Of a stretch of DNA of 52,264 nt, positions 47,845 to 49,542 are shown in pieces; the first letter of the stretch is position 1, and every line of letters begins with the position of its first letter. The position numbers and the translations under genes are program-made. Where the stretch lies: NCBI GenBank assembly GCA_016191165.1, contig JACPPF010000051.1:1-52264 (forward strand). The letters run 5' to 3'. Under the pieces are notes generated by a model. It saw only the letters and a list, made by a program, of their open reading frames with translations, was not told the DNA's origin and made no database searches. The stretch is from Planctomycetota bacterium. GTDB lineage: Bacteria > Planctomycetota > Planctomycetia > Gemmatales > Gemmataceae.

Positions 47845-48516
47845 CTACTTCTTTTTGAAATTGGTCTGCAACCACTTCTCCACTTCGTTGACGCGGAAGC
47901 CGCGCGGGCCGGGGCCGCCCTGGTAGGCGATTTTCCCGTCGATGCCAATGATGTAGAGTCGATCCGGCCAGGCGCCGTAGGCGGCGTTGACGCGATTGTC
48001 CTCGCGGTCCAGGAGCGTGGGCATCGTCATCTTGAGCGTGGCCATGCACTGCTGGGCGTTTTCAGCGCGCTCGGTGACGGTCTGGGTTTGCTTGACCTTG
48101 AGCAGCTTCTTCTCCCCTTTTTTGAGCGTGAGCAAGATCGAATCGGGGTGGGCCTCGCGAATGTAAACGAGGAAAAACTCGGCTCGATCTTTGTAGGTTT
48201 GGTAAACTTTTTCGAGGTAGCCAGACTGGCTACGAAAGGGCGGTCAGGTGTAGCTGCCAAAGATCAGCACCACCGGTTTCTTGCCGCGGAAGCTGGAAAG
48301 CTTCACTTCCGTGGATTTTTTCAGGTCCGGCAGCGTGAAATCGACGGCCGGGTCGCCGGGGCGAAGGGTGGTGGATTTGCGTTCCCCTTTCGCGGCCGGC
48401 GTGTTGATTTCACCGTTTTTTCCCTTCTTCTTTTTCTGTGCCCGGCCATCCGCCGGGAAGGCTAGCGCCAGGGTCAAGCAGGCCAAAAAGGTTACAGGCC
48501 GAGAGTAAAAGTGCAT
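47845..48516 (-). CDS. Iodothyronine deiodinase-like selenoprotein (in-frame TGA = Sec91)
   Basis: 223 residues if TGA 48244-48246 is read as selenocysteine. Signal peptide (VTFLACLTLALAFPADGRAQ), Lys-rich linker, then a thioredoxin-fold deiodinase domain: PAVDFTLPDL, KPVVLIFGSYT-Sec91-PPF, FFLVYIREAH (His123), and WPDRLYIIGIDGKIAYQGG with RVNEVEKWL at the end. In the vertebrate enzymes the same places read FGSCT-Sec-PSF, YIEEAH and LPERLYII, so TGA sits exactly at the catalytic position. No frameshift; both halves share one frame. GAGGTG lies 6 nt before ATG 48516. A SECIS-like hairpin follows the TGA. The natural substrate in bacteria is unknown; it could be a dehalogenase or a thiol peroxidase. 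The selA/B/C/D genes are not in the window. The alternative is a nonsense mutation of a Cys codon. Confidence 0.88.
48217..48233 (-). promoter_or_regulatory. Putative bacterial SECIS hairpin
   Basis: On the minus strand GTAGCCA-GTC-TGGCTAC: a perfect 7-bp stem whose loop starts with G, 17 nt after the TGA. CUUU upstream can pair with AAAG downstream to extend it. The geometry (apical loop 16-37 nt after UGA, G in its first two positions) agrees with the bacterial SECIS rule, and AGUCU at the tip resembles the GGUCU tip of E. coli fdhF. Confidence 0.7.
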
Positions 48517-48891
48517 CGTTTCACCTCGTTTTCGTGGCCAACGGTGAGCGTTCGCCGCGGTCGTGTTTTCCCTATCGGATCATCTTAGCACGCTTGCCCC
48601 GGCACCGATATTGGAAAGTCGGCGCGGTTCGGACTAATCGTCATGGTCACAGGATGGGTCGTTTCGGAATCGAGGAAAACCGGTGAAGGCTGGGAAGCCA
48701 GTGGCCGAACCAATGGAGTAGGAGAAAGCAAACCCGCGACTCCGGTAGGACAAACCGGGGAGCCTGTCGGGGCGCGGTTCTCGTTTCGTTAAGAACAAGG
48801 CGCAGGCGCAAAGGCAACGACTAGGGGGCGTTCCCCAAATTCCAAGGATGCCGAACCTGGGCCAGACCTTTTCCCAAATGGAGGAATCCTC
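48517..48891. other. Divergent intergenic region, selenoprotein / Cys-rich gene
   Basis: No gene seen in 375 bp; short ORFs on the minus strand are antisense to the Cys-rich gene. It should contain both promoters; I see no confident boxes. Confidence 0.5.
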
Positions 48892-49542
48892 GTGAATGCT
48901 GCGTTCTTGCTGATGACTTCGGCCCTCTTGGTTGGGCAGGGTGGGGACAAGAAGACCACGCCTCCCGCAGCCACGCCTGCCGTCTCGTCCAGTTGTGGCC
49001 AAGACCCGTGTGGCTGCGATCGCTTCGGGCACAGGTTGCGCGAAAAGCTGCGGGGCCTATTCAGTCGTGATTGCAATGATTCTTGTGCGACACCGAAGGC
49101 CTGTTGCGGCACGGCCCACGCCCGCACGCCTCTGTTCCGTTCGCGTTGCCACGAGGCCTGCCAGCCCAAGATCTGGAACTGGCAGCCGCCGTGCCGCCAA
49201 CCGCGTTGCCATCAAACCTGCGCGCCGGCGGCGTGCAACGACCCGTGCGCTCGTGGCGGGTTCAATCTGCTGGAGCGTCTGCGCGGCGCCTTCCGGCGCG
49301 GCGATAGCTGCTGCTCCGGCGGTTGCAGCTCGGGCGCGGCGACGACCGGCGAAAAGGTCGATCCGCCCAAGAACATGCCCAAGGGCGGCACGAAGCAGCC
49401 CGAAGAGGTCCGCGTTGTCCCACAGCCGGCCCCCTTCACGCCCAGCGTAGCGCCGGTGGCGCCCAATGTCCCCGGCCTGGAAATCGCACCGGTTCCAGTG
49501 CCGACGCCGCGCATCGAGGGAGGCCGCCGCGACCCGTTCTAA
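48892..49542 (+). CDS. Cys-rich exported hypothetical protein
   Basis: 216 residues from a GTG start with GGAGGA 7 nt upstream. A short hydrophobic N-terminus (AAFLLMTSALLVGQ), about 17 Cys between residues 35 and 152 in pairs and CxxxC patterns (CGQDPCGC, CNDSCATPKACC, CHEACQ, CHQTCAPAACNDPC, SCCSGGC), two RLRxxLRGLF/RLRGAF basic stretches just before Cys clusters, and a Pro-rich tail. No family I can name; similar Cys/Pro-rich proteins are common in Planctomycetota and may be structural or metal-binding. Followed by a strong terminator. Confidence 0.78.
   Translation: MNAAFLLMTSALLVGQGGDKKTTPPAATPAVSSSCGQDPCGCDRFGHRLREKLRGLFSRDCNDSCATPKACCGTAHARTPLFRSRCHEACQPKIWNWQPPCRQPRCHQTCAPAACNDPCARGGFNLLERLRGAFRRGDSCCSGGCSSGAATTGEKVDPPKNMPKGGTKQPEEVRVVPQPAPFTPSVAPVAPNVPGLEIAPVPVPTPRIEGGRRDPF

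Follow-up and report, generated by a model that had tools for sequence, protein, structure and literature searches.

A deiodinase-like selenoprotein of the Planctomycetota with a candidate resolving cysteine

Within the 52,264-nucleotide stretch of Planctomycetota DNA analysed here (the window), positions 47845..48516 hold, on the minus strand (read 48516→47845), a gene that almost certainly encodes a selenoprotein with selenocysteine (Sec) at an in-frame UGA, codon 91. The protein belongs to the family of bacterial deiodinase-like selenoproteins, known since 2005; this membership, the capacity of the genome to decode Sec, conservation and selection are shown by computation. The assignment follows from several lines of evidence taken together: homology that crosses the UGA, Sec machinery in the genome, a SECIS-like hairpin past the UGA in which one base pair has been exchanged in a compensatory way, retention of the UGA among orthologues, purifying selection acting before and after it, and natural exchange of Sec and Cys. 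As to what the protein does, we consider it probable overall that it is an exported thioredoxin-fold selenoenzyme of Pfam family PF00837, in which Sec91 would carry out the redox chemistry and Cys157 would resolve it. Animal deiodinases control thyroid hormone, hence the interest in the chemistry of their bacterial relatives.

A single gene divided by ORF calling

When TGA is translated as U, the gene runs from an ATG start through 223 codons to a TAG stop and contains exactly one TGA (48246..48244, minus strand), with no further stop and no frameshift. The motif GSYT-U-PPF around this codon and the segments VVLIF, VYIREAH and WPDRLYII all lie in this one frame, as an earlier sequence-only reading had proposed. 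Its coordinates were likewise correct, and to these we add the strand, which had not been given. Its expectation that gene callers would break the gene up is also borne out, since plain ORF calling yields two unconnected ORFs, a truncated one of 90 aa (48244..48516) and another of 96 aa (47845..48135).

Read from the sequence, a ribosome-binding-site-like GAGGTG (48522..48527, minus strand) stands 5 nt ahead of the ATG, and residues about 1-26 (48439..48516, minus strand) form a hydrophobic stretch that resembles a signal peptide. It is solely from this apparent signal peptide that we infer export. The mature protein would then have U91 as its single Sec and C157 (codon 48046..48048, minus strand) as its single Cys, the sole one past the signal peptide, and no other chalcogen residues except methionines. 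Divergent from the selenoprotein gene, positions 48892-49542 (plus strand) encode a small Cys-rich protein without a Pfam match, which seems to carry a signal peptide and is kept beside the selenoprotein gene in three congeners at 48-56% identity.

Homology across the UGA

The best Pfam match of the joined protein is to T4_deiodinase (PF00837), with an E-value of 2e-30 and a score of 106.3 bits against a curated cut-off of 27; weaker matches are to AhpC-TSA (PF00578, 7.8e-13) and Redoxin (PF08534, 1.8e-12). The nearest solved structures are those of mouse DIO3 (7.6e-22) and mouse DIO2 (5.4e-21), both crystallised as mutants with Cys at the catalytic Sec site, and identity to the two is about 33% over the domain. 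In each of these three cases, PF00837, DIO3 and DIO2, a single alignment crosses the UGA; with DIO3 and DIO2 it does so unshifted and places the UGA on the catalytic residue, which upholds the earlier claim of deiodinase-like homology on both sides of the TGA without a shift. These matches, together with the presence of UGA at the same column in orthologues and other homologues, argue that the homology is not due to chance. The protein consists of one thioredoxin-fold domain after the N-terminal hydrophobic stretch, with a fold related to ResA/TlpA.

Decoding of the UGA

The host genome assembly (7.2 Mb in 183 contigs, 95% complete) has as its closest named relative the Gemmataceae MAG Baikal-deep-G160, the only close relative among the named genomes searched. 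It contains selA (E-value 5.9e-142), a selB (361.6 bits) that carries the winged-helix SelB-wing_3 domain and a tRNA-Sec with anticodon UCA (73 bits). These three genes lie on separate contigs of the assembly (C39, C139 and C125 of G000). A search for the sel genes had been proposed at the outset; selA, selB and tRNA-Sec are present, and selD was not found in the 95%-complete assembly, where the three matches were ThiL-, HypE- and PurM-like, as named from their sequences and scores. Searching the host genome with the fused SelD of a congener yielded nothing better. Since all six congeners have selD, a gap in the assembly is the simplest reading of its absence, although an unproven one. In three of the congeners (L028, L029 and L030) selD itself has one in-frame TGA, and SelD appears to be a selenoprotein there; in the other three it lies in long open frames (760-809 aa), one of which (L031) is fused to an NADH-dehydrogenase-like part. 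General reassignment of UGA is ruled out, as TGA terminates 9 of the 24 main ORFs in the window.

A bacterial SECIS-type hairpin is predicted just 3' of the UGA (48217..48233, minus strand). The sequence GTAGCCA-GTC-TGGCTAC would form a perfect 7-bp stem with loop GTC and spans nt 14-30, counting the U of the UGA as 1. An A-T pair of the hairpin in L001 and L006 is C-G in L007 and L009; such a compensatory exchange, made despite the alteration of both amino acids (S96R and Y100D), is as expected of selection on the RNA. All seven pairs in the nt 14-30 register are found in 19 of 107 Sec homologues, whereas re-dealing the 3' arms 500 times gives 0.9 such sequences on average and never more than 4. 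A second group of 28 sequences has a 6-bp stem at nt 19-34, against 6.1 expected (maximum 12). Both counts are inflated relative to the independent events behind them, because related sequences share hairpins by descent. The family has at least two SECIS registers, and a single register for all 107 sequences is ruled out.

Conservation of the UGA and its distribution in the phylum

The UGA is retained in three syntenic congeneric orthologues (L006/L035, L007 and L009) and stands at the identical alignment column in these and 103 further homologues. As far as each contig reaches, the orthologues share their neighbours with the window: a transglutaminase-like protein and the Cys-rich exported protein in all three, and the SDR, LplA and GcvP2 genes in full in L035. 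Comparison of the orthologues gives dN of about 0.11-0.25 before the UGA and 0.11-0.16 after it, with dS of about 0.8-1.7; the low dN relative to dS past the UGA indicates that the downstream part is under purifying selection.

These data bear on the possibility that the gene is a pseudogene, or the product of a sequencing error, in which translation ends at the UGA and yields no more than a 90-residue fragment. The missing selD would fit such a case, but the same codon is UGA in 106 other genes, the reading frame past it shows low dN/dS and neither a second stop nor a frameshift, and selA, selB and tRNA-Sec are in the genome. We regard this possibility as having next to no probability, and the conserved UGA and low dN/dS on both sides rule it out.

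Of the 392 Planctomycetota genomes sampled, 115 contain a gene that scores above the PF00837 cut-off, and in 96 the gene carries TGA. SelA is found in 89 of these 96 genomes as against 152 of the 296 others (Fisher p 8e-15, uncorrected for phylogeny); the seven UGA-form genomes without a SelA match at the threshold used are draft assemblies, 67-92% complete. Genes of this sort are split or dropped in automatic annotation, so that a selenoprotein present in about a quarter of the sampled genomes can go unnoticed. Among 118 aligned Planctomycetota homologues, 107 have Sec and 11 have Cys at the catalytic site, and the tree needs three changes to account for the Cys forms. L130 and L131, both Cys forms, fall with the clade of the window's gene at moderate support (94), and their genomes have no SelA match at the threshold. 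A comparison of residue 91 among homologues had been proposed at the outset, with the concern that sel genes might be lacking or that close relatives might have only Cys beside disabling mutations; the close homologues are in fact Sec forms, and sel genes are present. The proposal of a deiodinase-like selenoprotein made by read-through of UGA is thus sustained by all lines of evidence named above.

Two further kinds of homologue were seen in the survey. Six homologues (L010, L039, L048, L055, L064 and L067), which include Sec and Cys forms, have what look by eye like EF-hand-like acidic repeats ahead of the deiodinase-like domain. In addition, the same genus has a second deiodinase-like selenoprotein (L004, L005 and L008) with GSCTUPPF, as in DIO3, and without C157; one genome (G005) contains both types.

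The active site compared with that of the animal enzymes

The catalytic and relay residues of deiodinases are kept in part: Sec91, S88, T90, Y118, E121 and the first His, H123, are all present, and Y118 and H123 are invariant (118 of 118 homologues). The residues that handle thyronine in DIO2 and DIO3, whose roles in the relay, loop-D, clamp and gate have been described (PMC11592359), are replaced. The second relay His (Dio2 His182) is T144, with Pro at this position in 105 of 118; the loop-D Trp167 corresponds to L128, a position where 50 of 118 homologues have Trp; P202 stands in for the Arg275/Lys241 clamp, and 46 of 118 have Arg there; and P184, a Pro in all 118, takes the place of the Phe258 gate. 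In a profile alignment P184 falls on the Pro before the last strands of the thioredoxin-family structure 3kcm, and it is probably the cis-Pro of the fold.

An iodothyronine deiodinase is therefore unlikely. A broader variant would make the protein a genuine reductive deiodinase or dehalogenase, acting by the DIO mechanism on iodinated or other halogenated aromatics of the environment. The active site and proton relay retain Sec, Ser88, Thr90, Tyr118, Glu121 and His123, which speaks for this, as does the position of DIO3 and DIO2 as nearest solved structures; but the thyronine features are gone, the named congener comes from a freshwater setting, deep Lake Baikal, and the authors of the 2005 description likewise expected a different function (PMC1088965). 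We consider this variant unlikely as well. The fold and the missing thyronine features suggest instead reduction of peroxide or a related redox step.

Cys157 and a proposed mechanism

Of particular interest is Cys157. Its column holds Cys in 102 of 118 homologues, or in 108 of 118 when one column of displacement is allowed. In human DIO1, Sec is recycled through a selenenylsulfide by way of a Cys two residues upstream (PMC9141512). Five bacterial members have a Cys at this -2 position from the nucleophile, and none of the five has C157, although the mutual exclusion corresponds to just 6 and 4 changes on the tree, too few for significance. Five others (L042, L043, L106, L134 and L146) have neither residue. 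The conservation of C157, the precedent of DIO1 and the absence of C157 where Cys-2 occurs suggest C157 as a candidate resolving residue for Sec91. A low-confidence AlphaFold2 model (single sequence, pLDDT 38.6) places C157 in a helix; a PDB profile search intended to align it with the resolving Cys of thiol peroxidases gave matches that covered the N-terminal part only.

The mechanism that we propose would begin with SelB and tRNA-Sec decoding UGA-91 as Sec, steered by the hairpin just downstream, and the selenoprotein would act outside the cytoplasm. Sec91 would attack an oxidised substrate, for which a peroxide or other electrophile is the likeliest candidate and an aryl halide a less likely one, and would itself be oxidised. 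Cys157 would then pair with the oxidised Sec91 to give a selenenylsulfide, which an external thiol reductant would reopen. We give a peroxidase or oxidoreductase function with Cys157 as resolving residue about an even chance, and we know of no peroxidase activity for any bacterial member of the family.

The protein might instead be an exported thiol-disulfide or selenol reductase that acts on proteins, for instance on the product of the divergent Cys-rich gene. The thioredoxin fold related to ResA/TlpA would suit such a role, and the Cys-rich neighbour is kept alongside in three congeners. However, there is no CxxC or UxxC motif, hence no adjacent resolving residue, and the linkage is unspecific, as the whole block with SDR, transglutaminase, LplA and GcvP2 is conserved. 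We think such a reductase quite improbable, and return to the selenoenzyme with Sec91 and Cys157 as the preferred reading.

More tentatively, the Planctomycetota proteins may form a distinct branch, in which Sec is recycled through the helix-borne Cys157 rather than the proximal Cys of DIO1 and DIO3, and Pro is fixed at the site of the thyronine-gate Phe. If so, these enzymes would represent the type of redox enzyme that could have given rise to the animal hormone enzymes. The hormone-free chemistry of the fold could be probed with direct mutants and natural variants, as suggested by Cys157, the lost residues of the thyronine site and the Sec/Cys exchanges that occur in nature.

Comparison with known systems

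Bacterial deiodinase-like selenoproteins, in Sec and Cys forms, were first described in 2005 from Sargasso Sea data (Zhang, Fomenko and Gladyshev, PMC1088965), and the family was met again in the GOS survey (PMC2398784). The novelty that the sequence-only reading attached to the gene was in this respect overrated. With these proteins the one described here shares PF00837, Sec or Cys at the same site, a bacterial SECIS and a presumed redox function; what is added is the scale, with the UGA form in 96 of 392 genomes, and the anatomy of the active site. Reviews of 2022 and 2026 that list the family (PMC9312934, PMC13188914) give its motif as UxxC, whereas the motif here is U-P-P-F, and Cys at +3 occurs in 1 of the 118 Planctomycetota homologues. 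Gemmata obscuriglobus and Isosphaera pallida are reported to have Sec machinery, and two other Planctomycetes to have selenoproteins (PMC4807772); none of the papers found in the library searched names Planctomycetota as a host of the family, a negative that is not firm. The NCBIfam model NF038285 (deiodinase_rel) matches the domain with 180 bits, below the model cut-off of 250, and the match covers only positions 179-340 of its 347.

Peroxiredoxins and thiol peroxidases (AhpC/TSA, Redoxin) belong to the same fold family, and it is by analogy with them that the mechanism is proposed. They differ in that the best match here is PF00837, the nucleophile is Sec and there is an insertion at the place of the deiodinase loop-D. 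With animal DIO1-3 the protein shares the catalytic Sec in GSxT-U-PPF and the YxxEAH relay segment. Unlike them, it has what looks like a signal peptide rather than a membrane anchor, and it lacks the second relay His, the loop-D Trp, the Arg/Lys clamp and the Phe gate; DIO1 and DIO3 have a proximal Cys, in place of which the Planctomycete protein has Cys157.
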